A stretch of 64,000 bases of DNA from Pedobacter sp. BS3 (GTDB taxonomy: Bacteria > Bacteroidota > Bacteroidia > Sphingobacteriales > Sphingobacteriaceae). The position numbers and the translations under genes are program-made. Location: contig NZ_VTRT01000003.1 in NCBI RefSeq assembly GCF_008274585.1, positions 1 through 64,000 of the forward strand, written 5' to 3'. Below, one piece after another: positions 1-14,061 of this stretch (positions are counted from its first letter, which is position 1; every line of letters begins with the position of its first letter). The notes beneath the pieces were generated by a model. The model did not search any database. It was not told where the DNA came from and was given only the letters and a program-made list of their open reading frames with translations.

Positions 1-80
1 TAAAGTTCTGAATTTCTTTAATCACAATAGGAATGACCTACATCTTTTTTTACTTACACAAAATTCAAGACACTACCCCG
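1..80. mobile_element. Possible end of an IS256-family insertion sequence
   Basis: Read on the minus strand, the stretch from about 79 down to 50 starts with GGGGTAGTGTC and continues into TTTTGTGTAAGT. Terminal repeats of IS256-family elements typically contain a TTGTGTAA-type core, so this may be one end of such an element whose transposase lies to the left of the window. No transposase coding can be seen in the 80 bases present and the partner end is not in the window. It could also be unrelated AT-rich DNA. Confidence 0.33.
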
Positions 81-94
81 GCCTTTGTCAGGAT

Positions 95-208
95 TTATTT
101 ACTTTTCCTTTTTCCTGCCATCTCTTTGGCAGCTTTGCTTTTTTCTTCTTTAGAAGTGTTTGAGCTTCTTAATTCGTGAGAGGCTTTGCTCTTCTCATCT
201 TTCTTCAT
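95..208 (-). CDS. Small lysine-rich hypothetical protein (37 aa)
   Basis: Encodes a very basic peptide made of two similar Lys/Ser/Ala segments (KKDEKSKASHELRSS and SKEEKSKAAKEMAGKRKSK), suggesting an internal duplication of a roughly 18-residue unit. No membrane segment or known domain is visible; nucleic-acid binding is only a guess from charge. The frame stays open upstream to 295 through an inverted repeat, but the repeated unit starts at the ATG at 208; an ATG at 217 is the alternative. No clear ribosome site. It sits between an IS-like end and the inverted repeat at 227-299. Could be a non-functional reading frame. Confidence 0.4.
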   Translation of the reverse strand: MKKDEKSKASHELRSSNTSKEEKSKAAKEMAGKRKSK

Positions 209-226
209 GTTACGCATAACGGTTCG

Positions 227-299
227 GGGCTTGGCGTTCGGGCGTGAAAGTTCCTGCGGACTTTCACGTTTGAACGTCAGCCCGCCTGACGCCAAGCCC
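227..299. repeat. Nested inverted repeat, attC-like in shape
   Basis: An outer perfect 11-bp pair (GGGCTTGGCGT at 227-237, ACGCCAAGCCC at 289-299) encloses an inner perfect 9-bp pair (CGTGAAAGT at 243-251, ACTTTCACG at 260-268) with an 8-base loop. A folded, two-level hairpin of about 70 bases between two small same-strand genes is the shape of an integron attC site, but the R-box consensus is not convincingly present. It could instead be a terminator-like or REP-like structure of the aldo/keto reductase transcript. Confidence 0.6.
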
Positions 300-334
300 T
301 TGTTGGTGGCTGCCCTTTTCTGTCTGTCGTGGTT

Positions 335-1282
335 TTACTTACTTGCTTTGTCCAACAATTCCAAATCTTCGCTGTCTAATTTCAATTCGGGTGCTGCAAA
401 CAAAGTTTCTAATTGTGCTTTGCTTGTTGCACTTACAATCGTTGCCCCGATGTGTGGTTGTGCCAACAACCAAGCTAATGCAACTGTTGCCTGTTGTGTG
501 TTGTGTTTGCCTGCAACATTGTCTAATGCGTTCAATACTGCAAAACCTTTTTCGTTAAGATATTTTGAAGCACCGCCACCACGAACGCTTTTACTAAAAT
601 CGGCTTCGCTTCTGTATTTTCCTGTTAAGAAACCTGCTGCCAATGACCAATAAGGAAAAACAGTTAAACCGTATTTTTCTACTAACGGTAAGTATTCCGT
701 TTCATATTTTGTTCGCTCCACTAAATTGTAATGCGGTTGCAAGGCTACATATTTCGGAAAGCCGTTTTTCTCGGAAACCTCAAATGATTGTTGCAAACGT
801 TCGGGTGAAACGTTGGAAGCTGCGATGTAACGCACTTTTCCTGCTTTTACAATTTCATCGTAAGCCGATAATGTTTCTTCAATAGGTGTTACATTGTCGT
901 CAAAATGGGTGTAATACAAATCAATGTAGTCTGTTTGTAAGCGTTGCAGACTTTCGTCCACTGATTTTAAGATGTGTTTTTTGCTGATGTCAAAACCGTG
1001 TTCTTTTGTTTCTGAACCTACTTTTGTAGCAATTACTAAATCCTTGCGGTTTCCTCTTGCTTTGAGCCAATTTCCAATTATGGTTTCCGACTGTCCGCCT
1101 TTTCCGTTTACCCACCACGAATAAGTGTCTGCAGTATCAATAAAGTTGAACCCTGCACCTGCAAAAGCATCTAAAATTTCAAATGATTTTTGCTCGTCTA
1201 ATGTCCAACCAAATACATTTCCGCCAAAATTGATACGACTTACTTCTAAATCTGTATTGCTGATTTTAATTTTTGTTGCCAT
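335..1282 (-). CDS. Aldo/keto reductase
   Basis: A 315-residue cytoplasmic TIM-barrel oxidoreductase of the aldo/keto reductase superfamily, expected to reduce aldehydes or ketones with NADPH. The catalytic tetrad is readable: Asp49 and Tyr54 in FIDTADTY, Lys87 in IATKVG and His126 in LYYTHFDD; the motif PYWSLAAGFLTGKY is typical of the YajO/YghZ-like branch. Length is normal for the family. It is the last gene of the twelve-gene minus-strand cluster, 19 bp after the quinone reductase gene, and is followed by the inverted repeat at 227-299. Substrate unknown. Confidence 0.93.
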   Translation of the reverse strand: MATKIKISNTDLEVSRINFGGNVFGWTLDEQKSFEILDAFAGAGFNFIDTADTYSWWVNGKGGQSETIIGNWLKARGNRKDLVIATKVGSETKEHGFDISKKHILKSVDESLQRLQTDYIDLYYTHFDDNVTPIEETLSAYDEIVKAGKVRYIAASNVSPERLQQSFEVSEKNGFPKYVALQPHYNLVERTKYETEYLPLVEKYGLTVFPYWSLAAGFLTGKYRSEADFSKSVRGGGASKYLNEKGFAVLNALDNVAGKHNTQQATVALAWLLAQPHIGATIVSATSKAQLETLFAAPELKLDSEDLELLDKASK

Positions 1283-1301
1283 ACTTTTTATTTTATAATT
1301 G

Positions 1302-1892
1302 TTAGATTATTTGTTCCAAATGTTGCTGATACGCCTGCCTGTATGCTTCAATTCTTTCGGGTGTTCCACCTTTTGCGACATCATAAAAATGCATACCGTC
1401 CAATTGGGTTAAGCCTACAAATTTCATGGCAATATGAAATCCATATAGAACTCCTTTGTCAGGCGAAAAGCCGTACATAATTTCACCCGGTATGGTAAAT
1501 GCACCTTCCGGAGCATTCCAGCTGCTGGTAACCATGTATTTTCTTCCTTGCAACAAACCACCTGTACCATAGTTGTACTCCGGATTGCTGTGCGTACGGC
1601 CATCACTTTTGTAGATGGTACCGCGTCCCTGTTGGAAAACGTCATCAATAAAGAGTTTCAGTCTATTCGGAACCTGAAACCACCAAATCGGCGTGTGGAA
1701 GATGATAATATCTGCCCAGACAAAATTTTCAATTTCCTTTGCCGTGTCATACTCTTCCCCCGTCTTGGTGATTCGGACCTCAAATCCGTTTTCTGTCAAA
1801 AAACCTGAAGTCCAATCCGTTAAGGTATTGTTGAATTTTCCTCCACTTTCATCATAAACTTGTCCTCCGTTAATAATCAATACTTTTTTCAT
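1302..1892 (-). CDS. mdaB: MdaB-like NAD(P)H:quinone oxidoreductase
   Basis: A 196-residue flavodoxin-fold protein that matches the modulator of drug activity B family: start MKKVLIINGGQ, the loop TPIWWFQVP and the flavin-site stretch TSSWNAPEGAF. Family members carry out two-electron NADPH reduction of quinones, avoiding semiquinone formation. In E. coli MdaB works with the quinol monooxygenase YgiN; a YgiN-like ABM gene is in this same cluster (8957-9244), which supports a quinone redox role here. Soluble, full length. It lies 29 bp downstream of the MBL hydrolase gene and is probably co-transcribed. Confidence 0.9.
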   Translation of the reverse strand: MKKVLIINGGQVYDESGGKFNNTLTDWTSGFLTENGFEVRITKTGEEYDTAKEIENFVWADIIIFHTPIWWFQVPNRLKLFIDDVFQQGRGTIYKSDGRTHSNPEYNYGTGGLLQGRKYMVTSSWNAPEGAFTIPGEIMYGFSPDKGVLYGFHIAMKFVGLTQLDGMHFYDVAKGGTPERIEAYRQAYQQHLEQII

Positions 1893-1921
1893 CTTTTCTT
1901 TATTTATTATTTACGTGATTT

Positions 1922-2860
1922 TTATCTCAAGATAAATCCCTTTTTCATGATTCCTTTTTTGATAAGCTGTGGCTGAATAATATCATCATGGCTTACTATC
2001 AGTTGGACTCCTTTAGACGGAAGTTGATTAAGCCAGTCCAGTTGATATTGGATTCTTACGGCATCTTCACCAATGCGTTTGACTTGCGATGCGGGTTTCT
2101 GTTTGCGTTCTTCTATACCGACATAGCTCCAGCTGACATCTCCCGTAAAGATGTATTCTTTACCGTTTTCAAATTGGGTGTATACCATAATTTCGCCAGG
2201 TGTATGTCCCGGAGCCTTGATTAAAACAATACCGGGAGCTACCGGAAGTACATCGTAAAAATCTACGGTAACAAAGTTTTTCACTTTTTCTATATCTGTT
2301 TTCAGTTGGGGCATCTGCGGTTTGTTGACCAAGGTGTTGAGCATCTGATAGGTAAGGATAGTCTTGGGGGCAATTTCATCAAAGTATTTTGTACGTAAAA
2401 CACCTGCAACATGGTCGCCGTGTTCATGTGTGATGAGAATTTTCACAGCTTGTCTCAGGGCCTGTTGAACGCTGTCATTTGCCGATGGAAAGTACGGTTG
2501 TTTCTTTCCGTTTCCGAAAAATTCATGCACTTCTTCATCCATTCCGGCATCCAACATAATTGTGGAATGCGGAAAGACAATCTGATAAGCGGTTCTTGCC
2601 TGAATATACGGTTCATCGGTGCCGCCTTCTACGGTTTGTGCAAACGTACGGGGGCTTTCGGCAAATTTGATGTAGCGTATTTCGGTGGCTTTTTCGCCTT
2701 GAATGGTATTGGCTTCCAGCCGGATTTTTGCCAGCAAATCGTCATTGTATTGAATTTCCGGAAAGGTTAAATTTAGGGTTTCCTGAGCAGTCAAAGAATT
2801 GTGAAACAAACCCGAAAGCAACACAAAAAGAATACTGATTTTTAAATAGATATTATTCAT
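1922..2860 (-). CDS. Exported MBL-fold metallo-hydrolase
   Basis: 312 residues with an N-terminal signal peptide (hydrophobic ILFVLLSGLF, cleavage near LTAQE). The metallo-beta-lactamase fold is marked by THEHGDH (HxHxDH, two zinc sites), APGHTPGE, the bridging Asp in FTGDVSW and a late VSHDD. Such proteins hydrolyse lactones, thioesters, phosphodiesters or beta-lactams; nothing here separates those. The class B beta-lactamase signature is not obvious, so a general periplasmic hydrolase is the safer call. Neighbours are MdaB and an SDR in the same direction with short gaps, consistent with one operon. Confidence 0.88.
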   Translation of the reverse strand: MNNIYLKISILFVLLSGLFHNSLTAQETLNLTFPEIQYNDDLLAKIRLEANTIQGEKATEIRYIKFAESPRTFAQTVEGGTDEPYIQARTAYQIVFPHSTIMLDAGMDEEVHEFFGNGKKQPYFPSANDSVQQALRQAVKILITHEHGDHVAGVLRTKYFDEIAPKTILTYQMLNTLVNKPQMPQLKTDIEKVKNFVTVDFYDVLPVAPGIVLIKAPGHTPGEIMVYTQFENGKEYIFTGDVSWSYVGIEERKQKPASQVKRIGEDAVRIQYQLDWLNQLPSKGVQLIVSHDDIIQPQLIKKGIMKKGFILR

Positions 2861-2872
2861 AATTTCAATTAA

Positions 2873-3667
2873 TTAAAAAGCACTATTTACCACACCGCCA
2901 TCCACTCTCAGGGCAGCTCCGGTAGTAGCAGATGACAACGGGCTTGATATATATACGATTAAGTTGGCGACCTCTTCGGGTTCGGCGAAACGTTCAATGA
3001 TGGATGAAGGTCTTTTTTCTCTGATAAATTCCAATGAAGCTTCAACCTCTGAAATGCCTCTTTCTTCTGCCAGTTTTTTCATTCCCGCATGATTTCCGGC
3101 AGACCAGGTAGGTCCGGGAAGAACGGCATTTACAGTAACATTTGTTCCACTCAGGTATTTTGCCAAACCACGGCTTAGTGCGAGATAGGCTGTTTTGGTG
3201 ACGCCATACAGAATCATATCATCCGGAATATTGATAGCTGATTCGCTGGAAAGAAAAATGATTCTGCCCCAGTTTTTTGCTTTCATTTTCTGAACATAAA
3301 AACGGGAAAGACGCACACCGCTCATCACGTTTACTTCAAAATCCTGAAACCAGGCTTCATCATCGGTAGATTCAAACGGTTGCGGACTGTAAGTGCCGAC
3401 ATTGTTGATGAGAATGTCCACTTCGGGAAGTTTTTCCAAGAGTGCAACCACTTCTTCCACTTTGCTAAAATCCGCCGCAATTCCATGCACATCGGCATCA
3501 CGAATATCTTTTTTGATTTCGACAATAACTTCTTCTATTTTAGCCAGATGACGGCCATTGATGTATACTTTTGCGCCTTCTTTGAGCAATCCTTTTGCTG
3601 TTGCTAAACCAATTCCATCTGTGGAACCGGTCACCAAAGCTGTTTTATTCTTTAACTGTAAATCCAT
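2873..3667 (-). CDS. Short-chain dehydrogenase/reductase
   Basis: A 264-residue classical SDR: glycine motif TGSTDGIG near residue 14, NNVGTY at the end of strand 4, the catalytic Ser in FLSSES and YGVTK for Tyr and Lys. C-terminus ends with the usual substrate-lid and dimer region (SSATTGAALRVDGG). The Arg in INGRH after the second strand suggests preference for NADP(H). Cytoplasmic, substrate unknown. It lies 12 bp upstream of the MBL hydrolase gene in the minus-strand cluster. Confidence 0.93.
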   Translation of the reverse strand: MDLQLKNKTALVTGSTDGIGLATAKGLLKEGAKVYINGRHLAKIEEVIVEIKKDIRDADVHGIAADFSKVEEVVALLEKLPEVDILINNVGTYSPQPFESTDDEAWFQDFEVNVMSGVRLSRFYVQKMKAKNWGRIIFLSSESAINIPDDMILYGVTKTAYLALSRGLAKYLSGTNVTVNAVLPGPTWSAGNHAGMKKLAEERGISEVEASLEFIREKRPSSIIERFAEPEEVANLIVYISSPLSSATTGAALRVDGGVVNSAF

Positions 3668-3685
3668 TATATGATATTTTATAGG

Positions 3686-4798
3686 TTATGGTAATGCTAT
3701 TTTGTATGCAGTATAGGGATATTCCGTTTTGTCCACACCGTTGTTCCACTGCGGAAGACGCTGTAATTGTGAATCGGAAAAATAAAGAAATCCATCGCTG
3801 CCGATGCCCAAAGAATCCGGCCAGTGGAGACGTTTGTCTTTTACCAATACTTTTAATTCCCCTTTGGGAGTCAGGTAAGAAATCGAATGTGATTCGGAAG
3901 TAGTGAGGTAAATATTTCCTTTTTTATCGGCGATTAAACCGTGCGTAACACCCACTTTGGCAACGGTTTCTACTTTGCTTTCTAGTGCTTCTTCGGAAAG
4001 ATTTTTATCGGCTAGGTATCGGGTTTCAATACGGAAAAGTTCCCGTTTATTGATCGGTTTGAAATAGAAATACTTGAAGTCATCTGTTAAAGCGATTCCA
4101 TTGACATTGGAGGAAAAAGGCTTTCCGTTCTTATCTTTCATTTCCACTCCATCATAATTTAAACTAATGTTGTCAGCCTTCGTAAATTTAGTATTTACTA
4201 AAACAGTTCTCGCTTCATCCGTGTTTAAGTCTAAAATAACGATAGCCGCTTGTGCAGGATCTGAAAGATAAGCAACGTTGTTTTTCAAATCTATACGGAC
4301 GTCATTTAACGCGGATTTAGAAAAGTCCAGGTTTTTAAAAGAATACACTTTTTCTACCTGATTGGTTTGGGTGTTGATTTTTACGAGCTTAAATAGCCCT
4401 TTATCATTGCTGCTGCCATCAGCAAAAATATTTCCGGAAGCCGCAGGTTTGGAGTCTAAAACCCAAAGATTATCTTTTGCATCCACAAAAATATCCTGAA
4501 CCCGTAAAAAGGAGTTTTTGTAGTTACCTTTTGTATTCCATGACAAAGTTGGATATGCAGTTATCTTCCCATTTTTTTCTTCTGCTAAAGCCAGATTGCC
4601 GTTGCCATCATAATTCGGGAAGGAAACAAAGACCCTGTCTTGCGAATTGATACTTAAGCCGATGACCATTTCTTTTTCAAAATGGGCGAAAGGAATCAGT
4701 TCCTGAGCAGAAACCGTATTCATAAGGTTAAGTGCCGAAACAATAAAAATGATGATGGGCAATTTCAAATCAGTATTTCCAAACGTTCTATATTGCAT
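3686..4798 (-). CDS. Yellow/MRJP-like secreted beta-propeller protein
   Basis: 370 residues resembling the major royal jelly protein/Yellow family found in bacteria, a six-bladed propeller related in fold to SMP-30/gluconolactonases. Recognisable pieces are VFVSFPNYDGNG, DNLWVLDSK, NDVRIDLKNNVAYLSD, GVTHGLIADKKGNIY and GIGSDGFLYFSD. A hydrophobic signal segment (IIIFIVSALNLMNTVSA) ends before QELIPF. Oddly, that signal is preceded by MQYRTFGNTDLKLP, which reads like the first residues of an aldo/keto reductase, so the start looks chimeric. The ATG follows the stop of the upstream Gfo/Idh gene after two bases, so translation is probably coupled. Confidence 0.8.
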   Translation of the reverse strand: MQYRTFGNTDLKLPIIIFIVSALNLMNTVSAQELIPFAHFEKEMVIGLSINSQDRVFVSFPNYDGNGNLALAEEKNGKITAYPTLSWNTKGNYKNSFLRVQDIFVDAKDNLWVLDSKPAASGNIFADGSSNDKGLFKLVKINTQTNQVEKVYSFKNLDFSKSALNDVRIDLKNNVAYLSDPAQAAIVILDLNTDEARTVLVNTKFTKADNISLNYDGVEMKDKNGKPFSSNVNGIALTDDFKYFYFKPINKRELFRIETRYLADKNLSEEALESKVETVAKVGVTHGLIADKKGNIYLTTSESHSISYLTPKGELKVLVKDKRLHWPDSLGIGSDGFLYFSDSQLQRLPQWNNGVDKTEYPYTAYKIALP

Positions 4799-4800
4799 GA

Positions 4801-5856
4801 TTATTGATTTTTTAGGTAAATAATCTTTCCTTCTTCTACGCTTTTGCGGACAGCGTCCATCACGAGCATATTTTGGTAGCCTTCAAAACCCGTCATGGGC
4901 GAGGGTTTGCTGTTTCTGAAATTTTGAAAAACAGCTTCAAAATAGTTGTAATAATTTCCGTCTTCGGTCGGAATCGTTTCGGAGATTTTCTGACCGTTTT
5001 CCATATAAGTCAGTGTTCCCTGTTCCGAAGCATCCTCCAAACTCCAAGATGTAGATTTCGGTTTTTCGCCTTTTAATAAACGTTCTTCCTGAATATCGGA
5101 ACGCGATTTCAGAAAACTCCCTTTCGTTCCATGAATGATATATCCGGGCTGATTGCTCAGCGAAATATCCGTACCGCGGATCTTTACCCTTTTATCGGGA
5201 TAATACAAAATCGCTTCAAAATAATCTTCCACCGGAGAATGCGGGCGGAATGCGGCAAAATCCGCAAACACTTTTTCCGGCAGACCGAACAATTTTACGG
5301 CTTGATCGGTAACGTGAGAACCTCTGTTATTAAATTCACCTCCACTTAATTTTTCTTCGGTATGGAAAGCACCACGAATTTCTGGCAGGTATATATCGTA
5401 AGAAAGTGTTGCCTCTTTTATCTCACCCAATTTACCGGATTTGATCACTTTTTCTACCGTTAAAAAATCGCTGTCGAATCTTCTGTTCTGATAAACATAA
5501 AGTTTTAATTTTTTTGCTTTTGCAAGGTCATCCAATTCTTTGGCTTGCGCTGCGGTATTTGTAAAAGCTTTTTCTACAATAGCTGATTTTCCTGCTTCCA
5601 GAACTTGTTTGGCTAATTCGTAATGTGTTCCGATGGGCGTATTGACTACTACCAATTCCACTTCGGAATCGGCGAGAATTTCCTCCAGCGTAGTGTAAGA
5701 CCGGGTATAAGGATAATCGTTCTGAATTTTCTTTTTGCTTCGTTCCAAAGCACCAATTAATTGGAAACCCGGATGCAAATCCAAAAAAGGCGCAAAAAAA
5801 ACAGAACCCGAAAATCCGTAACCGAGAATGACCGTATTTATTTTTTGTTGAGACAT
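4801..5856 (-). CDS. Gfo/Idh/MocA-family oxidoreductase
   Basis: 351 residues with an N-terminal Rossmann domain (VILGYGFSGSVFFAPFL, then NTPIGTHYELAKQVLEAGK) and the EK motif in the form VEKAFT near residue 93, followed by the C-terminal alpha/beta domain. Family members oxidise or reduce sugar, inositol or related substrates with NAD(P). Full length compared with YvaA/YdgJ-type members. It sits between the MFS gene and the propeller-protein gene; the start is ATG at 5856, 10 bp after the MFS stop. Substrate cannot be stated from sequence. Confidence 0.92.
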   Translation of the reverse strand: MSQQKINTVILGYGFSGSVFFAPFLDLHPGFQLIGALERSKKKIQNDYPYTRSYTTLEEILADSEVELVVVNTPIGTHYELAKQVLEAGKSAIVEKAFTNTAAQAKELDDLAKAKKLKLYVYQNRRFDSDFLTVEKVIKSGKLGEIKEATLSYDIYLPEIRGAFHTEEKLSGGEFNNRGSHVTDQAVKLFGLPEKVFADFAAFRPHSPVEDYFEAILYYPDKRVKIRGTDISLSNQPGYIIHGTKGSFLKSRSDIQEERLLKGEKPKSTSWSLEDASEQGTLTYMENGQKISETIPTEDGNYYNYFEAVFQNFRNSKPSPMTGFEGYQNMLVMDAVRKSVEEGKIIYLKNQ

Positions 5857-5866
5857 GAATGTTTTT

Positions 5867-7051
5867 TTATTTAATTTTATTTAAAACAAATTTTGTTCCT
5901 ATAAAATGTACGATTAAAATGACAATACCGAAAAATAATCCCGCTACCGAAACGCCTAACCATTTATAATATTGCCAAAGCAGGCTGCCGATGAATGTTC
6001 CGAAAGCGCCCCCTACGAAATACCAAACCATATAGACCGTATTGATACGGTTTCTTGCGGAAGGATTTCCTTCAAAAATGATGGTCTGATTGGTAATGTG
6101 TACTGATTGTACGCCCAAATCCAAAACAAATGCACCAATGATGATTCCGATTAAGCTCCGGGAAGAAAAACCGAGAACTATCCATGCAAAGATGATCACC
6201 AAAGTTCCAGTATAGATGATGGTGTTTTTATTAAAGCGGTCGCTGAGCCTCCCAACGAAAGAAGCTACTGTAGCGCCTGCGATGCCGACCAGCCCCAATG
6301 AACCCGCCACATCACTTCCCATGTGGAACGGCTCGCCTTCCAATAGAAAAACCACCGTTGTCCAGAAAATCGTAAAAGCTCCAAAGTCAAATGCTCCGCG
6401 AACTGAAGCCAGACGAAGTTTCGGAATGCTCACAAACTGCTTTGTAATAGATTTTAAAAGCTGAGGATAAGTTCCTTTAAAGTCGGGATAGATTTCAGGT
6501 AAAAATTTCAATAGAGCGAAAAATAAAGCGGCCATGATGCCGGCTGCAATAAGAAACATTTCCTGCCAGCCGAGATGTGCTCCCACAAAACCACTTAACG
6601 TTCTTGACCCCAAAATCCCAATGAACATGCCCGTCATTACCGTACCAATGGCTGCACCACGTTTTTCGTCTTCGGCAAGTTGCGCCGCCATGGGTACCAT
6701 GACCTGCGGAACCACCGATGTTAGGCCAATAAAGAAACTTGCCATTTTTAGTTGAAATGGTGTTTGTGAATATGCTGCTGCCAGAAGTGCTGCAATAATG
6801 AAAAAGAAATCTATCAGAATCAATCTTTTCCTCCTCAGCATATCGCCAAGCGGAACTATGAGAAACAGCCCGACAGCGTAGCCCACCTGTGTCAGCATGG
6901 GAACGGAAGAAATTTCCAATTCACTGACGTTGAAGTATTTCGCCATCAGACCGAGAAGCGGCTGGTTGTAATAATTATTGGCAACCACCAATCCGGTAGT
7001 TGCCGCCAGTAGAAACAGAAGCCCTTTGCTGAGTGTTTGATTTACTGTCAT
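5867..7051 (-). CDS. MFS transporter, probable drug or metabolite exporter
   Basis: 394 residues with about twelve hydrophobic segments; the opening ANNYYNQPLLGLMAKYF and the loop GDMLRRKR after TM2-3 match the YnfM/AraJ-like exporter branch of the major facilitator superfamily. Inner membrane. Its ATG overlaps the stop codon of the upstream alpha/beta hydrolase gene (TAATG arrangement at 7049-7053), so the two are translationally coupled. In the cluster it may export a product or the toxic substrate of the oxidoreductases; that is inference. Confidence 0.92.
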   Translation of the reverse strand: MTVNQTLSKGLLFLLAATTGLVVANNYYNQPLLGLMAKYFNVSELEISSVPMLTQVGYAVGLFLIVPLGDMLRRKRLILIDFFFIIAALLAAAYSQTPFQLKMASFFIGLTSVVPQVMVPMAAQLAEDEKRGAAIGTVMTGMFIGILGSRTLSGFVGAHLGWQEMFLIAAGIMAALFFALLKFLPEIYPDFKGTYPQLLKSITKQFVSIPKLRLASVRGAFDFGAFTIFWTTVVFLLEGEPFHMGSDVAGSLGLVGIAGATVASFVGRLSDRFNKNTIIYTGTLVIIFAWIVLGFSSRSLIGIIIGAFVLDLGVQSVHITNQTIIFEGNPSARNRINTVYMVWYFVGGAFGTFIGSLLWQYYKWLGVSVAGLFFGIVILIVHFIGTKFVLNKIK

Positions 7052-8055
7052 TAATTTTTCAAAAATTGTTTCATTGGCTGGATAAAGCGGTCAAATGCTT
7101 CTATGTGCGGCAAGTGCCCTACATTGTCTAATTCCACCAACTGTGAACCTGAAATTTTTTGTTGCGTTTTTTTTCCGAGTGTTTGGTATTGTCCCATTTT
7201 ATCTGCTACTTCCGGATCTTTTACACCAGCTTTGCCAATGGCTGTTCGGTCTCTGGTACCGATAATCAAAAGCGTTGGAACTTTTATATTCTGAAATTCA
7301 TAGACCACCGGTTGCGTGAAAATCATATCGGAAGTTTTCGCATTAACCAATGCAACTTTTGGATAATCCGGATGTTTCACCCAGCCGGTAAGCAGGTACA
7401 CCCATTCGTCGTATTCTGGTTTCCACTTATTGTCGTAATAAAATCCCAGCTGATATTTTTTGGTCGTTTCATAATCAGCCTTCAATTCCTTTCCATAATT
7501 TGCATCAATGGAAGTGTAAGGAGCTACTAATTTCCAATCTTCCAAACCAAGCGGATTTTCCAGAATCAGTTTTTCAACCGTTTCGGGATACATCAATGTA
7601 AAACGCGTGGCAATCATCCCACCCATGGAATGACCTAACAAGTAGATTTTATTGATTTTTAATTCATCCAACACGGCTTTGGTATTTTGTGCAAGCTGTT
7701 GAAATGTAAACTGATAGTCAGTCGGTTTTGATGATTTTCCAAAACCGATTTGATCGGGCACCACCACACGATAACCTTCTTTTGTGAGGGCTTCAATAGT
7801 GGTTTTCCAATAAGCACCGTTGAAGTTTTTACCGTGCAACAAAACAATGGTTTTCCCATTTGGCTTTTCAGGATTTATGTCCATATACGCCATTTTCAAC
7901 GCTTCGTTCTGCGATTTGAAATTCAGGTAATGCACTTCGTAGGGATATTCGTAATTGGTAAGCATAATATCCAGAACGGGACGTTGCTGTGCCATTGCCA
8001 TATTTATAGAAACCAAACACAATAGGAATGTTGTGTATTTCTTTATTGTCATCAT
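7051..8055 (-). CDS. Exported alpha/beta hydrolase
   Basis: About 334 residues from the ATG at 8055, chosen because it puts a signal peptide (KKYTTFLLCLVSINMAMAQ) at the N-terminus; an upstream ATG at 8079 adds eight charged residues. The fold is shown by LLHGKNFNGAYW (oxyanion loop), the nucleophile elbow GHSMGG, IIGTRDRTA for the acid region and the final His in VGHLPHIE. Related proteins include haloalkane dehalogenase-like and epoxide hydrolase-like esterases. Periplasmic. Stop overlaps the MFS start. Substrate unknown. Confidence 0.9.
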   Translation of the reverse strand: MMTIKKYTTFLLCLVSINMAMAQQRPVLDIMLTNYEYPYEVHYLNFKSQNEALKMAYMDINPEKPNGKTIVLLHGKNFNGAYWKTTIEALTKEGYRVVVPDQIGFGKSSKPTDYQFTFQQLAQNTKAVLDELKINKIYLLGHSMGGMIATRFTLMYPETVEKLILENPLGLEDWKLVAPYTSIDANYGKELKADYETTKKYQLGFYYDNKWKPEYDEWVYLLTGWVKHPDYPKVALVNAKTSDMIFTQPVVYEFQNIKVPTLLIIGTRDRTAIGKAGVKDPEVADKMGQYQTLGKKTQQKISGSQLVELDNVGHLPHIEAFDRFIQPMKQFLKN

Positions 8056-8154
8056 TTTTCTGTTTTTACGTATCTTCATTTATCTTCTTTCCCAATATGA
8101 ACGGATAAAATGGCAGCACTATCAATGTCTTAACCCCACCAACCGATAGTATTA

Positions 8155-8931
8155 CTATTTTGAAATATCTTTCGCCAACCAGCGTGTATCTACCGGATTG
8201 GAAACAAAAATGCCTTTGATGGCGGCATCAAATTTCTTGGAATAATCCTGTGCTAAATGTGCTTCGTGGTCGGGTACGCTTTCCCAGCTTTCTACTAAAA
8301 GAAATTTATTGGCATTTTCTACATATTGAAAAACATTGAAACGCGTATTTCCCTTCGCTTGCCGAGCACGGGGTGTTACTGCTGCTATTGCGTCCAAAAA
8401 CACCTGTCTTTTTTCTGGTTTTACGTCAAAAGTTACCAATACGTTGCGTGGACTATATATCTCATCAGCATTTTCAGGTTCTACTGCAGGCACTTCCGCT
8501 AATTCTTTCAGCTCTTTCATTTCCATAGGATCATTAGCCTCTTTAGCTTCTTTCCACACCTGATGAGGCAAATACGGCTTTTTTAAATGGTCTTCAAATA
8601 CCGCTCTGTTTTTGAATCGTTCCAGTAACGCTACTTCGTAACGACCATCTTCAGGCTGAAAGAACGTAAACAAAACGCTGCCCGGTTCCTTACGGGTTTG
8701 GACGACATTATTGTACATTGCCTTCATCAAGGTATCCCATTTTTCAGGTTTCACCTTGACAAACATAATGTGTTGATAACCTACCGTATCCACTATGGAA
8801 GTGGTATCTGAGGCTATGGTTTCTGTAAACTTTTCTTTTTTATTTGTATTGCCTGTACAACTGGTCAAAGCAAAAAGCAATGCTATTGCTCCTGTTTTTA
8901 GGGTTAAAATGTTTCTGTTTGAAGATGTCAT
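8155..8931 (-). CDS. Lipoprotein with two ABM (antibiotic biosynthesis monooxygenase-like) domains
   Basis: 258 residues: a lipoprotein leader (IALLFALTSC, Cys near residue 25) followed by two dimeric ferredoxin-like ABM units, about residues 50-135 (YQHIMFVKVKPEKWDTL, then LLERFKN) and 160-250 (VLVTFDVKPEKRQVF, then VESWESVPDHEAHL). ABM proteins act as cofactor-free monooxygenases or haem/quinone-modifying enzymes and normally dimerise; here the tandem fusion would give an intramolecular dimer fixed to a membrane. The gene lies upstream of the alpha/beta hydrolase and after the single-domain ABM gene. Enzymatic activity is not proven by sequence. Confidence 0.86.
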   Translation of the reverse strand: MTSSNRNILTLKTGAIALLFALTSCTGNTNKKEKFTETIASDTTSIVDTVGYQHIMFVKVKPEKWDTLMKAMYNNVVQTRKEPGSVLFTFFQPEDGRYEVALLERFKNRAVFEDHLKKPYLPHQVWKEAKEANDPMEMKELKELAEVPAVEPENADEIYSPRNVLVTFDVKPEKRQVFLDAIAAVTPRARQAKGNTRFNVFQYVENANKFLLVESWESVPDHEAHLAQDYSKKFDAAIKGIFVSNPVDTRWLAKDISK

Positions 8932-8956
8932 GATTTTTTATTTTTTTGATAATAAT

Positions 8957-9244
8957 TCACTTTAATAATTTAGCCTTTACTATCGACAATTCCTGCACTT
9001 TTTCTTGTATTACTTTTTGAAACTCTACGAAATACGGCTGCTTGTTATGTTCATTTAAGCCCTCTTGGTTTTCCCAATTTTCATAAAAGAAAAAGGTGTT
9101 TTCATCTTCTATACTTTGGTGTAGTTGGTATAAAATGGCAGCTTTTTCTTTTCGTGATTGCTCTAACAAATTCAACAAAAATGCTTTTACTTCGGTAGTA
9201 AATTCGGGTTTGCTTTTGATGATTGCTGTGATGTAAATGTTCAT
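8957..9244 (-). CDS. YgiN-like ABM-domain monooxygenase
   Basis: A 95-residue single-domain protein of the antibiotic biosynthesis monooxygenase family: NIYITAIIKSKPEF as strand 1, a helix with FLLNLLEQSRKE, then FFFYENWENQEGLNEH, the family's most conserved region. It has no signal peptide and should form a cytoplasmic dimer. E. coli YgiN is a quinol monooxygenase that forms a redox cycle with MdaB, and an mdaB-like gene is present at 1302-1892. It is 25 bp upstream of the two-domain ABM lipoprotein gene. Confidence 0.88.
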   Translation of the reverse strand: MNIYITAIIKSKPEFTTEVKAFLLNLLEQSRKEKAAILYQLHQSIEDENTFFFYENWENQEGLNEHNKQPYFVEFQKVIQEKVQELSIVKAKLLK

Positions 9245-9270
9245 TTTCTTATTGTTTTATTGATTGTTCT

Positions 9271-10209
9271 TTACTCTCTGATTGTTGTTTTGTCGTGCAA
9301 AGCGATTTCGGCAATTTCATCTTTACGTTTGAATGAAACGCCTTTGTGCGACTGAATGTATTTTATCAAATCGTAGGCGGTTTTTACCATTTGCGGCGTT
9401 CCACCAATACGGTCGTGAAAACTGATTGAAAGTTGCCGTCTTTTATATTCACTCTCGGCATACAGTTGGTCAAACTCGGCTTTCACTTGGTTAAAAAACT
9501 GGTCGGTAGAAAAGCCTTTGCCCTCAATCAATAAAATATCGTTGCAACGCAAGGTGTAAGGCACTACAACAAAATCTTTATTGTTTACTTGAATGATAAA
9601 AGGTTCATCACGGCTCAAATCGTCAATGTGATATTTGAAACCTAATTCCTGCAAAACGCTTAATGTGTTTTCGCCCCTGCGAAGCCAATTTGCATTATAG
9701 CCGATTGGCGTTGCTCCTGTTGCATTTTTTACGGCATCAACTCCGTCTTTGATAAATTTTGTTTCATCTTCATAAGACATATTGTAAGAGTTGCTCCAAT
9801 TCATTCCGTGTGCTGCTGCTTCGTGTCCTCTGCTTACAATTTCTTTTGCTAATTCGGGGTTTTTCAATACGGCTGCCCCAACCATATGCGAAGTAACTTT
9901 TATGCCTAACTTGTCCCAATTATCTAACATTCTCGGAATGCCCTCTTTGTAGCCGTATTGAAACCAAGTATCAGCGGGCAAATCTTTGAAGCCGTCTTTT
10001 ATTTTAGGAAACGGACTATCGGCATTGTTCGGTTGATTGCCTGCTTCAAACTGCATAGAAACGGAAACAACCAAACGTGAGCCGTCAGCCCATTTTGTTT
10101 TTTCGTTTGTTGTTGCTTGTGGAATGGTTGCCAATGTTTCAAAAGGATTTACTACACTTGCCAAACCAACCAAACTGCTTTGCTTTATGAAATCTCGTCT
10201 TGTTCCCAT
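9271..10209 (-). CDS. Tat-exported polysaccharide deacetylase-fold hydrolase (PuuE-like)
   Basis: 312 residues beginning MGTRRDFIKQS, a twin-arginine signal followed by a hydrophobic SLVGLASVV stretch, so probably exported folded. The body is a NodB/allantoinase-like deacetylase barrel: KVTSHMVG, then RGHEAAAHGMNWSNSY carrying metal His residues, GYNANWLRRGENT, and a C-terminal SISFHDRIGG. This resembles PuuE allantoinase-like enzymes more than chitin deacetylases. The first Asp-rich motif of classical NodB proteins is not obvious, as in the PuuE branch. Substrate unknown; it is between DoxX and the ABM gene. Confidence 0.85.
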   Translation of the reverse strand: MGTRRDFIKQSSLVGLASVVNPFETLATIPQATTNEKTKWADGSRLVVSVSMQFEAGNQPNNADSPFPKIKDGFKDLPADTWFQYGYKEGIPRMLDNWDKLGIKVTSHMVGAAVLKNPELAKEIVSRGHEAAAHGMNWSNSYNMSYEDETKFIKDGVDAVKNATGATPIGYNANWLRRGENTLSVLQELGFKYHIDDLSRDEPFIIQVNNKDFVVVPYTLRCNDILLIEGKGFSTDQFFNQVKAEFDQLYAESEYKRRQLSISFHDRIGGTPQMVKTAYDLIKYIQSHKGVSFKRKDEIAEIALHDKTTIRE

Positions 10210-10214
10210 TGCTT

Positions 10215-10607
10215 TTATTTTTTGAGTAAGTTATCTATCGACAAGGTGTTATACTGAATGAAAAAAAGTATAACGCCTAAATAAATAGAATGAATAAGCT
10301 GGGCAGTAATCGGGTCCCAATTTTCAATGGTAGTGTTTCCGAAAATGAACGCTGCCATTAGTAGTAATGCGGCATAAATTGCTTCCCGTGTGCGGAAGCC
10401 TGTCAAAATCATTACTCCTGTAACGACTTCAATAATAGGGACTGCATAACCAAAACCAAGTATTAAAGGTTTTGGTAAATAAGACTTTTCCATAAATCCG
10501 AGCATCCAATTAGCGAAGTCCTGCAATTTTGGCAAGCGAACTAATCCGTGCCCTAATAGTGATGCCGCTATTGGCAAACGTAGAAGAAAATAAGCTGTAC
10601 TATTCAT
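10215..10607 (-). CDS. DoxX-family membrane protein
   Basis: 130 residues with four predicted membrane helices; LLRLPIAASLLGHGLVRLP, VVTGVMILTGF and the C-terminal IHSIYLGVILFF are typical of DoxX/SURF4-like proteins. Members include thiosulfate:quinone oxidoreductase subunits and partners of redox stress enzymes, so contact with membrane quinones is possible. It is the first gene of the minus-strand cluster, 5 bp upstream of the deacetylase gene, and faces the araC-type gene across a 99-bp divergent promoter region. Confidence 0.9.
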   Translation of the reverse strand: MNSTAYFLLRLPIAASLLGHGLVRLPKLQDFANWMLGFMEKSYLPKPLILGFGYAVPIIEVVTGVMILTGFRTREAIYAALLLMAAFIFGNTTIENWDPITAQLIHSIYLGVILFFIQYNTLSIDNLLKK

Positions 10608-10639
10608 TGTTTTGCGTTGTTTTACTTTAAATTACTCTG

Positions 10640-10666
10640 CAAAGGTGCAATCATTTTTTCGTTCAA
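10640..10666 (-). promoter_or_regulatory. Putative promoter of the DoxX-to-AKR cluster
   Basis: On the minus strand a TTG (rc of 10664-10666) is followed after 16 bp by CACCTTTG (rc of 10640-10647), one mismatch from the Bacteroidota -7 consensus TAnnTTTG. Transcription would start near 10634, giving a leader of about 27 bases before the DoxX ATG at 10607. It overlaps the upstream part of the AraC-gene promoter, so one bound regulator could control both directions. Confidence 0.5.
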
Positions 10667-10669
10667 CTG

Positions 10670-10701
10670 TTGTATAATCATTGGAAGTGTTTGTATCTTT
10701 G
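10670..10701 (+). promoter_or_regulatory. Putative promoter of the AraC-family gene
   Basis: TTG at 10670-10672 and TATCTTTG at 10694-10701 are 21 bp apart and fit the Bacteroidota TTG/TAnnTTTG promoter. The ATG at 10707 begins only five bases after the box, so the mRNA would be leaderless or nearly so. This also argues against the non-ATG start further upstream in the same frame. Confidence 0.62.
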
Positions 10702-10706
10702 CAGGT

Positions 10707-11540
10707 ATGGAAATACGGAATTTATATCAACCTTTTGAGTTGGATTTGGTTGAAGTAACCGAATATGAAGCCCAAAAGCATAAGAATACTTTTTTTGAAA
10801 TGGTGTTTGTGCTTGACGGAAAGGGAACGCAGATAATCAACAATCACAAGCTGCCGTATTGCAGTGATAAATTGTTTCTGATTTTTCCGCAAGACACACA
10901 TACTTTTGAAGTAAGCACACCAAGCAAATTTTTCTTTATTCGTTTCAACGAAACATATTTGAAAACACAAAGCAAAGAATGGGTGCAGAAGTTGGAATTT
11001 ATTTTTCACAACAGCAATCATTCGCCAAGTTGTATTTTGAAGACTATAACTGACAAACCTTTGGTCAGGTCTTTGGTAGAAGCGTTAATAAGGGAACACG
11101 TTAATAATCAGCCACAACAACAGGAAGTAATTAAACAACTTATCAATACGATTATTACGATTGCTGCAAGAAATATCGTTTTAGCACCGTCTGCAACTTT
11201 GAATAACCTAAAATCAGAAAATGCCTTTCTATTGCTTAATTACATTCACCAAAACATTTATGAGCCAAAGAATTTGAAAGCCGAAACAATATCAAAGCAT
11301 TTCAATGTTTCGCCTACTTATATCAGCGAATATTTTAAAACGCAAATAGGGCAAAGTCTACAAGAATATATAACATCTTATAAACTAAAACTGATTGAAA
11401 CCCGATTGCAGTTTACGGATATGCAGATAAATGAAATTGTACACGAATTGGGTTTTAGCGATGCAAGCCATTTGAACAGGTTGTTCAAGAAATACAAAGG
11501 TGTTAGTCCAAGTGAGTTTAAGAAGTCTGTCAGCAAGTAA
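10707..11540 (+). CDS. AraC-family transcriptional regulator
   Basis: 277 residues from the ATG at 10707. The N-terminal half is a cupin-like sensor region (EVTEYEAQKHKNTFFEMVFVLDGKGTQII, a readable split of the AraC ligand-binding barrel); the last 100 residues hold two helix-turn-helix motifs, AETISKHFNVSPTYISEYF and INEIVHELGFSDASHLNRLF, ending in the AraC signature KKYKGVSPSEFK. It is divergent from the twelve-gene cluster and is the obvious candidate to control it, probably as a ligand-responsive activator. A TTG 90 bases upstream is rejected because the promoter lies between. Confidence 0.92.
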   Translation: MEIRNLYQPFELDLVEVTEYEAQKHKNTFFEMVFVLDGKGTQIINNHKLPYCSDKLFLIFPQDTHTFEVSTPSKFFFIRFNETYLKTQSKEWVQKLEFIFHNSNHSPSCILKTITDKPLVRSLVEALIREHVNNQPQQQEVIKQLINTIITIAARNIVLAPSATLNNLKSENAFLLLNYIHQNIYEPKNLKAETISKHFNVSPTYISEYFKTQIGQSLQEYITSYKLKLIETRLQFTDMQINEIVHELGFSDASHLNRLFKKYKGVSPSEFKKSVSK

Positions 11541-11919
11541 TTTGGGTGGTGGGTGGGCTTGGTTTCCCGTTTTTGTCCGTCTGTTGATGTTAGCACGGTG
11601 GTCGGTTAGGGTTGCCACCAACAGTACTTTTTAAATGTTTAACAATAGGTTATTTGTTAGTACAACACAAGCCGTGAACGTTGGTTTGAAAATTTTGATT
11701 TTTTAAATAGGGATGCATATTGGGTTTTACATTGCTGAATTGTTCTATTGTTGAATTGCTAAATTGCTGCGGGTTAAAACCTAAAACGTACCACGTAAAC
11801 CCTCTGCCGCTTCCGGTCTTTTCTGACTTTCCGACTTCCGGACTATCCGCCATGAACTATGAACCATAAGCTAATAGCTATCAGCCACGTAAAACGTATA
11901 ACGTAAAACTTTTCACTCT
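11541..11919. other. Intergenic boundary with low-complexity repeats
   Basis: No gene seen. It contains GCCACCAACA at 11614-11623, found inverted at 302-311 on the far side of the cluster; a word-like repeat (11731-11770) built on ATTGCTGAATTG and CTATTGTTGAATTGCT; and a second repeat of ACGTAAAAC-like words near 11790 and 11893. Base composition and style change here, from the AT-rich cluster to the more GC-rich genes on the right. Confidence 0.6.
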
Positions 11920-12492
11920 CTACAGCCCCGTATTACTCCTGAATAATTTAATGGCGATAGCCAGCAGGATCACCCCAAACGCCTTACGAAGAACCTCTAA
12001 TCCTGTTTTACCGATGAGTTGCTCAATACGTTGGGTGTTTTTTAATACAATATAAACAACGATGGTATTGAGCAGGATACCTACAATGATGTTGGGCATG
12101 GTATATTGTGTTTTAAGCGACAGCAAGGTCGTCATAGTACCCGCCCCGGCAATCAGCGGAAAGGCCAGCGGCACAATAGAAGCCGAGGCTGAAATTTCCT
12201 CTTCCTTAAAGAATTTTATCCCTAAAGTCATTTCCAGGGCAATGAAGAAGATAACCAGTGACCCCGCAATGGCGAAAGACGAGATATCCAAACCAATAAT
12301 ATCCAGCAGTTCATTACCCAAAAAGAGGAAGATGATCATCAGGGCCAGTACAGTAAGCGAGGCCTTTTCAGATTCAATATGGCCCACGCGGCGGCGCACA
12401 TCGATGATAATAGGGATGGAGCCCAGTATATCAATGATGGCAAACAAGATCATGGTCACCGAGACAATCTGTTTCAGGTCAAACGTGGGCAT
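11920..12492 (-). CDS. MarC-family integral membrane protein
   Basis: About 190 residues with six hydrophobic segments and typical MarC sequences: FAIIDILGSIPII, a repeated-half structure, and PLAFPLIAGAGTM. MarC proteins were named from the mar locus but their transport role is unsettled, and drug resistance should not be inferred. The ATG at 12492 (MPTFDLKQ) is preferred over 12510 because a TAGCTTTA box (rc of 12512-12519), one mismatch from the -7 consensus, lies right before the upstream ATG. Downstream of the permease gene terminator. Confidence 0.9.
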   Translation of the reverse strand: MPTFDLKQIVSVTMILFAIIDILGSIPIIIDVRRRVGHIESEKASLTVLALMIIFLFLGNELLDIIGLDISSFAIAGSLVIFFIALEMTLGIKFFKEEEISASASIVPLAFPLIAGAGTMTTLLSLKTQYTMPNIIVGILLNTIVVYIVLKNTQRIEQLIGKTGLEVLRKAFGVILLAIAIKLFRSNTGL

Positions 12493-12530
12493 AATTAAAC
12501 AATTGGTCATGTAAAGCTACAGAAAAACCC

Positions 12531-12568
12531 ATAAAAGCTGTCTCCGGATTTTCAGAAACAGCTTTTAT
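12531..12568 (-). terminator. Hairpin terminator after the CAT-type permease gene
   Basis: ATAAAAGCTGT (12531-12541) and ACAGCTTTTAT (12558-12568) form an 11-bp perfect stem with a 16-base loop, placed directly after the stop of the permease gene at 12586 in its direction of transcription. Confidence 0.7.
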
Positions 12569-12585
12569 AGTGCTTTAATATAAAA

Positions 12586-14061
12586 CTACAGTTCCGGTTC
12601 CGGGGGATCTACCGGGAACTTAACAATACCTTTACGGATGTGTGAGTGCCTCTTGCTGTAGGTAAAATAAATGATCAATCCAATGATCAGCCAGATAATC
12701 AGCCGTTCCCAGGTGTGCCAGGGTAATCCGGCCATCAGGTAAAAGCAGGTTAACATGCCCAGAATAGGAACTACGGGAAAAAACGGAGTTTTAAATGGTC
12801 GTTTTAGTTCAGGGCTGGTATATCGTAAAACTAAAATGCCGCCGCATACAATGGTAAAGGCTAATAATGTACCTATCGATACCAATTCGCCTAATAAATT
12901 AATCGGCCCAAAACCAGCAATAGCCATAGCTATAATACCTGTAATAATGGTAGTAATGTACGGCGTTTTGAATTTAGGATGTATCTTACTGAAAACAGCA
13001 GGTAATAATCCATCATTTGCCATAGAATAAAATATACGGGGTTGCCCCATCAGCATAACCAGAATAACAGAGCTCAAACCGGCAATAGCGCCGATCTTGA
13101 TCGGGAATCGCAGCCAGAATAAGCTACTGCCACCGGCATTTACGGCTACGGCAATCGGATCCGGAACATTAAGCTCTTTGTAATTAACCATACCCGTCAT
13201 TACCCAACCTACCAGGATGTAAATGATTGTACAGATAACCAGCGAGCCTAAGATGCCTCTTGGCATGTCTTTTTGTGGATTTATAGCTTCCTGCGCTGCG
13301 GTAGAAACGGCATCAAACCCAATGTAAGCGAAGAAGATGATACCGGCTCCCCGTACAATGCCATCAAAGCCAAACTCTCCGGGGCCTTTAGCGTCAGGGA
13401 TAAACGGTACCAGGTTATCCTGATTGATATATGAAATGCCGAATCCAACAAACAGCAGGATAACAGCAACTTTTACTACTACAATGATGTTATTAAAACG
13501 TGCCGATTCGCGTATACCGATAACCAGTAAGGTGGTAATAATGGCAATCACAAACATAGCCGGGAAATTGATGATAGCTCCCGTAGGCGTGAAAGTGCCA
13601 GCTGTGGAGTCGTAATTATAGGGGGCCTGAGCAATGTTTGCCGGTATATGAATACCAAAATCCTTTAAAAAGCTCACCACGTATCCCGACCAGCTTACGG
13701 CTACTGTAGATGATGCAAATAAATATTCGATGATCAGATCCCAACCGATGATCCAGGCCAGAAATTCACCCATAGTTGCGTATGCATACGTATACGCACT
13801 TCCTGCAATGGGGATCATAGAAGCAAACTCAGAGTAGCAAAGACCGGCAAAGGCACAGGCTACACCTGCCAGGATGAACGATAATACTACTGCTGGACCG
13901 GTATGCAATGCAGCAGCAGTTCCGGTTAATGTAAAAATACCGGCGCCTATAATGGCTCCAATGCCTAATGAGATAAGATTAGTGGCATTTAATGTGCGTT
14001 TTAGTCCACCTTCGGTTCCGGCCTCTTTAATTAATTGCGATATAGGTTTTTTGTAAAGCAT
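12586..14061 (-). CDS. APC-superfamily amino acid permease (CAT-like)
   Basis: 491 residues with about twelve to thirteen membrane helices. The first helix carries GIGAIIGAGIFTLTG, the substrate-binding glycine motif of the amino acid-polyamine-organocation family, and FAYIGFDAVSTAAQEAINPQ plus the cytosolic GILGS loop match the cationic amino acid transporter (CAT/YfnA) group. Probably proton-coupled amino acid import at the inner membrane; the substrate is not resolved. It is transcribed alone, ended by the hairpin at 12531-12568, and has a TATATTCG element upstream similar to that before the second APC gene at 16734. Confidence 0.93.
   Translation of the reverse strand: MLYKKPISQLIKEAGTEGGLKRTLNATNLISLGIGAIIGAGIFTLTGTAAALHTGPAVVLSFILAGVACAFAGLCYSEFASMIPIAGSAYTYAYATMGEFLAWIIGWDLIIEYLFASSTVAVSWSGYVVSFLKDFGIHIPANIAQAPYNYDSTAGTFTPTGAIINFPAMFVIAIITTLLVIGIRESARFNNIIVVVKVAVILLFVGFGISYINQDNLVPFIPDAKGPGEFGFDGIVRGAGIIFFAYIGFDAVSTAAQEAINPQKDMPRGILGSLVICTIIYILVGWVMTGMVNYKELNVPDPIAVAVNAGGSSLFWLRFPIKIGAIAGLSSVILVMLMGQPRIFYSMANDGLLPAVFSKIHPKFKTPYITTIITGIIAMAIAGFGPINLLGELVSIGTLLAFTIVCGGILVLRYTSPELKRPFKTPFFPVVPILGMLTCFYLMAGLPWHTWERLIIWLIIGLIIYFTYSKRHSHIRKGIVKFPVDPPEPEL

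Follow-up and report, generated by a model that had tools for sequence, protein, structure and literature searches.

The first 64,000 nucleotides of contig NZ_VTRT01000003.1 of Pedobacter sp. BS3, the whole stretch analysed here and called the window, contain twelve genes in a row on the minus strand and, diverging from them, a gene for an AraC-family regulator. Our comparison of this cluster with loci in other genomes showed that its make-up is modular: a conserved core of AraC, DoxX and PuuE-like hydrolase genes, with a conserved repeat and a predicted -7 promoter box at a fixed spacing from it, stands together with ten further genes, and the base composition of the cluster deviates from that of other window genes. 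We see an even chance that the cluster is an inducible stress/detoxification operon of the electrophile or quinone type, acting in both envelope and cytoplasm, and a composite of the conserved core and acquired cargo. A broader proposal, for which our confidence falls somewhat below that, is that the core may be an undescribed stress switch common in Bacteroidota (His-Pro-Cys AraC, 21-bp repeat, DoxX and a Tat cyclic-amide/imide hydrolase) that serves as a landing platform for detoxification genes, ten of them here.

In the window the core has the order divergent C109 AraC, predicted operator, DoxX and PuuE-like gene, with the following elements:

10707 (ATG)–11540, plus strand: AraC-family regulator with an H105-x-P-x-C109 motif, core module (PF12833/PF02311).
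10694–10701, plus strand: predicted -7 box of the araC promoter, TATCTTTG, as read from the sequence.
10670–10695, minus strand: predicted AraC operator, TACAAACACTTCCAATGATTATACAA, a 21-bp direct repeat (TACAA-N16-TACAA) overlapping the araC promoter.
10640–10647, minus strand: predicted -7 box of the operon promoter, CACCTTTG, with TTTG 26 nt after the operator.
10215–10607, minus strand: DoxX/MauE-type membrane protein, core module, first of the row (PF07681, PF07291).
9271–10209, minus strand: Tat-exported PuuE-like hydrolase, annotated as a polysaccharide deacetylase, core module (PF01522, 3cl6, Tat-like RRDFIK).

Recurrence of the core was counted in the neighbourhoods of the best 80 of 337 PuuE-like relatives, several of which end at contig ends, with a window gene taken as present when matched at E 1e-8 over at least half of its length. 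By this measure DoxX was present in 55 of the 80 loci, AraC in 50, the SDR oxidoreductase in 12, the aldo/keto reductase (AKR) in 5, the MRJP propeller in 4, and the MFS transporter and MdaB in one each; the small ABM protein, the double-ABM (2xABM) lipoprotein, the alpha/beta hydrolase (ABH), the Gfo/Idh oxidoreductase and the metallo-beta-lactamase-fold (MBL) hydrolase were found in none of the 80. AraC, DoxX and the PuuE-like gene occurred together in 48 loci, 46 of them with a close AraC (more than 40% identical), the AraC of the remaining two (L072 and L081) being only 27–28% identical. Loci with a core and a close AraC span several Bacteroidota genera and include a record of Flavobacterium johnsoniae (L069), a species that can be manipulated genetically. 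The DoxX residues G19 H20 G21, V23 R24, P26 K27 L28, E60, E95 N96 W97, Q103 and H106 are kept in at least 95% of 56 sequences. A conserved twelve-gene system, as the sequence-only reading had envisaged, is rejected: within the flanks read, co-occurrence reached at most five of the 13 cluster genes among the 80 loci (Chitinophaga terrae, L142) and six of 13 on one Olivibacter contig, and the full set was not found in other Bacteroidota, where the AraC-DoxX-deacetylase set and smaller pairs recur instead.

The regulator consists of a two-helix helix-turn-helix domain and a sensor domain (PF12833 and PF02311), and its Foldseek matches are ToxT, Rns and RhaR, with a full-length TM of about 0.3. 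Its only cysteines are at positions 52 and 109, of which the latter is conserved: when the window AraC was aligned with 48 others that lie beside PuuE-like genes (43–74% identity), all 49 had a cysteine at column 109, and H105, P107 and C109 were invariant in 26 of 26 aligned core AraCs. Among 52 other AraC-family open reading frames (ORFs) in the loci, a single one carries a cysteine at column 109, within a gapped segment that its alignment to the query does not include; C109 is absent from all 13 of these distant ORFs that align over the sensor domain (two of the 13 are one gene counted twice). A structural model places C109 in a loop between helices 90–102 and 116–132, a position that is only a guide because the model has a pTM of 0.55.

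Upstream of araC, the direct repeat TACAA-N16-TACAA was found in 33 of 49 regions, compared with a mean of 0.385 and a maximum of 2 in mononucleotide shuffles that allowed N13 to N18; 21 of these regions come from records named Flavobacterium and 12, including the window, do not. With up to three mismatches allowed, the 64 kb contain no such site other than the predicted window operator at 10670–10695. In Bacteroidota, the -7 consensus is TAnnTTTG, and a TTTG follows the repeat after 25 nt in 29 of the 33 regions and after 26 nt in two, the window being one of the latter (31 of 33 together; mean 0.8 and maximum 5 in mononucleotide shuffles for a spacing of 23–27 nt). Judged by this spacing, the proximal half-site would stand in for the -33 box, in the layout of a class II activator. 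That the cluster has an AraC switch of its own, as claimed earlier, is thus supported by a conserved repeat at a fixed spacing from the -7 box.

In the explanation we prefer, the AraC protein would use Cys109/His105 to detect a reactive electrophile, quinone or oxidant, or else a metal, would bind TACAA-N16-TACAA and, with the promoter-proximal half-site in the -33 box place, would recruit RNA polymerase to the operon, from an operator that would also cover part of araC's own promoter. The cargo, gained in the window species, would deal with the toxic compound by reduction, hydrolysis or export: MdaB, AKR, SDR and Gfo/Idh would be quinone/carbonyl reductases, and further gains would comprise the ABM proteins, the exported ABH and MBL hydrolases, the Yellow-type propeller and the MFS exporter. 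From the core come definite predictions of a sensor residue, an operator and a regulon, and the cluster illustrates how detoxification operons may be assembled, with cargo added behind a conserved inducible promoter. We found no literature on an AraC-DoxX-PuuE-like core in a search that most subscription journals lay outside.

Several observations weigh against this explanation. In 60 of these 80 loci no cluster gene beyond those of the core was found, and cargo and core may thus serve different functions; DoxX is missing from 25 of the 80 and an AraC match from 30, and the presence of SDR in 12 may be background. The exact repeat is absent from 16 of the 49 regions, several of which (e.g. in Mucilaginibacter and Olivibacter) look like degenerate forms of it, and the operon -7 box as predicted in the window (CACCTTTG) is weak. 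The counts also overstate independence, because most repeat-bearing loci belong to a single genus and because C109 is the mark of a single subfamily with common ancestry. That the twelve genes are all co-transcribed is read from their spacing, and the PuuE-like hydrolase is without an evident role in quinone chemistry.

The twelve ORFs occupy 335–10607 of the minus strand with intergenic gaps of -1 to 75 bp, which, together with AraC at 10707–11540, confirms the layout described earlier of a one-strand row with small gaps and a divergent regulator. In transcription order, DoxX and the PuuE-like hydrolase are followed by the ten cargo genes:

8957–9244, minus strand: ABM-domain protein of 95 aa (PF03992).
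8155–8931, minus strand: 2xABM lipoprotein, with two ABM domains and, judged from the N-terminus, a lipobox LTSC.
7051–8079, minus strand: exported ABH (PF00561, GHSMG).
5867–7051, minus strand: MFS transporter, probable exporter (PF07690).
4801–5856, minus strand: Gfo/Idh/MocA oxidoreductase (PF01408, PF02894).
3686–4798, minus strand: exported MRJP/Yellow-type beta-propeller (PF03022, 77.5 bits).
2873–3667, minus strand: SDR oxidoreductase (PF00106/PF13561; TGSTDGIG, YGVTK).
1922–2860, minus strand: exported MBL hydrolase, rare (PF00753; HEHGDH, GHTPG).
1302–1892, minus strand: MdaB-type NADPH:quinone reductase (similarity to E. coli MdaB; PDB matches).
335–1282, minus strand: AKR, last of the row (PF00248).

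Families were mostly as the sequence-only reading had named them, except that it listed eleven, the twelfth being the MRJP/Yellow propeller (3686–4798), and that its "deacetylase" is nearest to PuuE allantoinase. Its view of the row as one for redox chemistry or electrophile detoxification holds in part, by family (MdaB, AKR, SDR, ABM, DoxX and MFS), and the split it saw between cytoplasm and envelope is borne out: from N-termini judged by eye, five of the twelve products look exported (PuuE-like, 2xABM, ABH, MRJP and MBL), two are membrane proteins and five are apparently cytoplasmic. A check against generally known consensus motifs found the expected cofactor-binding or catalytic motifs in AKR, SDR, MBL and ABH. 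The Gfo/Idh protein (4801–5856) has EKA in place of EKP, the usual motif of its family, so its activity may be altered.

Many of these families would also fit an operon for the catabolism of a single compound derived from plants or sugars: MFS would transport it, Gfo/Idh, AKR and SDR would oxidise it, and MRJP, ABH and MBL would hydrolyse lactones or esters; sugar catabolism often involves Gfo/Idh, AKR, SDR and hydrolases. The window order MFS-Gfo/Idh-MRJP parallels reported domain combinations, a few bacterial or fungal proteins being described in which an MRJP domain occurs with GFO_IDH_MocA or MFS_1 domains (PMC6678240), and the MFS protein has a weak match, under the cut-off, to the NCBIfam aromatic-acid symporter model. 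Against this stand the EKA of Gfo/Idh, the five MFS neighbourhoods fetched (L159–L163), none of which holds another cluster gene, and the twelve proteins themselves, among which we found no SusCD, glycoside hydrolase or ring-cleavage family over the cut-off, and we regard a catabolic operon as improbable. Aromatic degradation, the other possibility raised earlier, found no showing: in an NCBIfam search that covered 10 of the 13 cluster proteins, the matches of ABH to the PcaD, BphD and HsaD models, like that of MFS to the symporter model, were far under the cut-offs.

The strongest recurrence of cargo together with core genes was in Olivibacter sitiensis (L016, L046 and L065), where about 14 kb of DNA holds relatives of AraC (52% identical), the PuuE-like protein (83%), MRJP (52%), AKR (65%), 2xABM (47%) and DoxX (57%). 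This array, in the order AraC-deacetylase-MRJP-RND-AKR-MFS-2xABM-DoxX, shares with the window six of 13 families, the one-strand arrangement and the divergent AraC, but its gene order is rearranged and it includes an RND pump and a different MFS gene (the pumps were recognised by eye). In the 30 kb read there, MdaB, SDR, MBL, Gfo/Idh, the small ABM protein, ABH and the window MFS were unmatched at E 1e-6.

Smaller combinations recur elsewhere. AKR relatives (77–80%) lie near MRJP relatives (53–57%), with zero to two genes between them, in four genomes (L214, L215, L216 and L219); a 78% relative of ABH directly follows MRJP in genome G177 (L217), near a gene that by eye is OYE-like; and 2xABM lies between TetR-like (by eye) and AKR genes in its four strongest relatives outside Olivibacter (L017–L020). 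A 52% relative of the small ABM protein is found between DoxX and AKR in L047. In L049/L103, which represent one genome region, a one-strand array of SDR, DUF417, CMD, DUF302, SnoaL, ABH, Gfo/Idh, ADH, SnoaL, DoxX and PuuE-like genes is preceded by a different type of AraC gene, and the DoxX-deacetylase pair has a 48% relative of the window MFS at a distance of about 3 kb. Because its pieces recur elsewhere in this way, the window cluster reads as a composite.

Two of the loci have features of their own. In L023, a small ABM relative (51%) and an SDR-like gene lie between two OYE-like genes (8715–12021), resembling an electrophile-detoxification operon. The L047 array (8511–13520) has two PuuE-like paralogs, Dabb, an epimerase-like gene, DoxX, ABM and AKR, with an adjoining divergent LysR-like gene; it lies near genes that by eye are relaxase-like and recombinase-like, and is possibly a mobile version of the array.

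Where the cargo came from was approached through base composition and the distribution of single genes. The mean GC content at third codon positions (GC3) of the 12 cluster ORFs of at least 100 aa (the small ABM gene being excluded) is 0.381, compared with 0.476 (sd 0.049) for the 37 other window ORFs of at least 150 aa. Among 251 genomes of the family, the own genome included, the PuuE-like gene has matches in 14 (E 1e-20) and 2xABM in 11 (E 1e-3), five of the other 2xABM matches being nearly full length, and the MBL gene is found in its own genome only, with two matches in 395 genomes of the phylum, again counting its own (E 1e-20). MFS (E 1e-40) and MRJP (E 1e-30) have matches in 161 and 73 of the 251, respectively. 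Whole-genome searches for ABH, Gfo/Idh, SDR, MdaB, AKR and the small ABM protein, and likewise for the ABM domain, covered the own genome, and a search of genome contigs with 2xABM as the query found nothing. In the genus's other genome, neither 2xABM (E 1e-3) nor the PuuE-like gene (E 1e-20) has a match, which, together with the low GC3, points to acquisition of the cluster.

Two further elements lie between the row and the start of the contig, whose first base is base 1 of the window:

1–77, no strand assigned: terminal part of an IS256/Mutator-type insertion sequence where the contig breaks off, also present on contigs C27 and C2 and related to sequence neighbouring Transposase_mut.
218–304, no strand assigned: palindromic element past the last gene, with arms, a DNA fold z of -3.3 and copies on contigs C1 and C2.

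C27 and C2 begin with the same 77 bases as the window, the sequences parting after base 77, and bases 49–77 match (90%) sequence beside a Transposase_mut gene in genome G669. The palindrome recurs in full once on each of C1 and C2, where, as in the window, it adjoins the 3' end of a minus-strand ORF, and in part on C2; such elements are like cassette boundaries, and their arms and copies may fit an integron reading. Members of the palindrome family, with conserved outer arms and a variable middle, lie at gene 3' ends in several places of this genome: besides 218–304 of the window, in L187 (6192–6315, full; 2959, partial) and L188 (6413–6536). A small lysine-rich ORF with no Pfam match lies just past the palindrome (95–295, minus strand).

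A plasmid origin is unsupported: 1–12000 has no plasmid DNA match, 2xABM has no plasmid relative and MBL has a single one (Aureibacter, 36%), in whose surroundings, compared by annotation rather than by sequence, SDR and AraC genes occur 6–10 kb away and otherwise no cluster families. After marC, the sister genome has a 368-aa ORF and a GMP-synthase-like gene (by eye), the matches of which lie here on contig C26. We reject a simple insertion next to marC, as the join differs in the sister genome and no clean empty site was found.

The first 14 codons of the MRJP gene resemble the start of an AKR gene and are followed by a signal peptide. Compared with the AKR start in L047, 28 of 42 nt are identical, and none of 2000 mononucleotide shuffles was as good, a test that favours the match because the AKR start was picked by a pattern (one that fits 5 of 2057 ORFs, all AKR-like by eye). 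No other listed MRJP match aligns before residue 8. The fused start is probably the scar of an in-frame deletion.

Such a scar, the low GC3, the insertion-sequence end and repeated palindrome at one edge, and the failure to find the twelve-gene set elsewhere would all suit a chance gathering, a low-GC acquired island where genes with no relation to one another came to lie downstream of a promoter that already worked. We nevertheless hold this to be unlikely, if less so than a catabolic operon, because several gene pairs recur in other genomes, six of the 13 genes recur together in Olivibacter, and the gene functions share one broad kind.

Among known systems, the composite stress operon that we favour can first be compared with PuuE allantoinase, to which the Tat "deacetylase" is closest by sequence and modelled fold (Foldseek against 3cl6: E 3.5e-20, TM 0.76, 28% identity; profile E 5e-43; model pLDDT 76). 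The two have fold and sequence in common, but the window protein has a Tat-like signal, adjoins DoxX and scores far under the NCBIfam PuuE allantoinase equivalog cut-off (147.4 compared with 424.6 bits). PuuE acts on a small cyclic substrate and is described as non-metal-binding, unlike HpPgdA (PMC3084791).

The divergent arrangement of E. coli rclR and rclABC resembles the window core, an AraC regulator with a sensor-domain cysteine diverging in both from a membrane-protein operon. The core might, like RclR-RclABC, answer reactive chlorine or copper, with DoxX in the part of the DoxX-like/DUF417 membrane protein and the cargo giving general relief from oxidative damage. RclR is reported to use Cys-21 and Cys-89 and to respond to HOCl and not to diamide, methylglyoxal or NEM (PMC7464077); core AraCs have an invariant cysteine with a histidine nearby, and the L049/L103 array, with its DoxX and deacetylase, encodes a DUF417 protein 50% identical to RclC. 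On the other hand, BLAST at E 0.1 gave no match between the window AraC and RclR, and the cysteines of the window AraC are at 52 and 109, the conserved one thus lying elsewhere than those of RclR, which leads us to reject RclR membership; no cluster protein matched RclA or RclC at E 0.1 (the two rclABC products compared), and the window core instead has DoxX and a PuuE-like hydrolase. A response of the RclR kind seems to us improbable, to about the same degree as a catabolic operon.

The comparison with E. coli MdaB and YgiN bears on the quinone chemistry of the preferred explanation. The sequence-only reading had placed MdaB and a YgiN-like ABM protein together; they are indeed in the same row and MdaB is genuine, but they are not adjacent and the small ABM protein has no significant match to YgiN (E 0.087). 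We therefore reject an adjacent MdaB-YgiN pair, and the argument drawn from it is weakened: mdaB and ygiN adjoin in E. coli, whereas in the window mdaB is flanked by AKR and MBL genes, with six genes between it and the 2xABM lipoprotein and seven between it and the small ABM gene. A YgiN-like domain is present as the C-terminal half of the 2xABM lipoprotein (28%, E 9e-8). Window MdaB is a true relative of the E. coli protein (43% identity over 195 residues, E 1e-56), with solved MdaB chains as its best PDB matches, and in Campylobacter jejuni MdaB is reported to contribute to protection against diverse quinones (PMC8765430).

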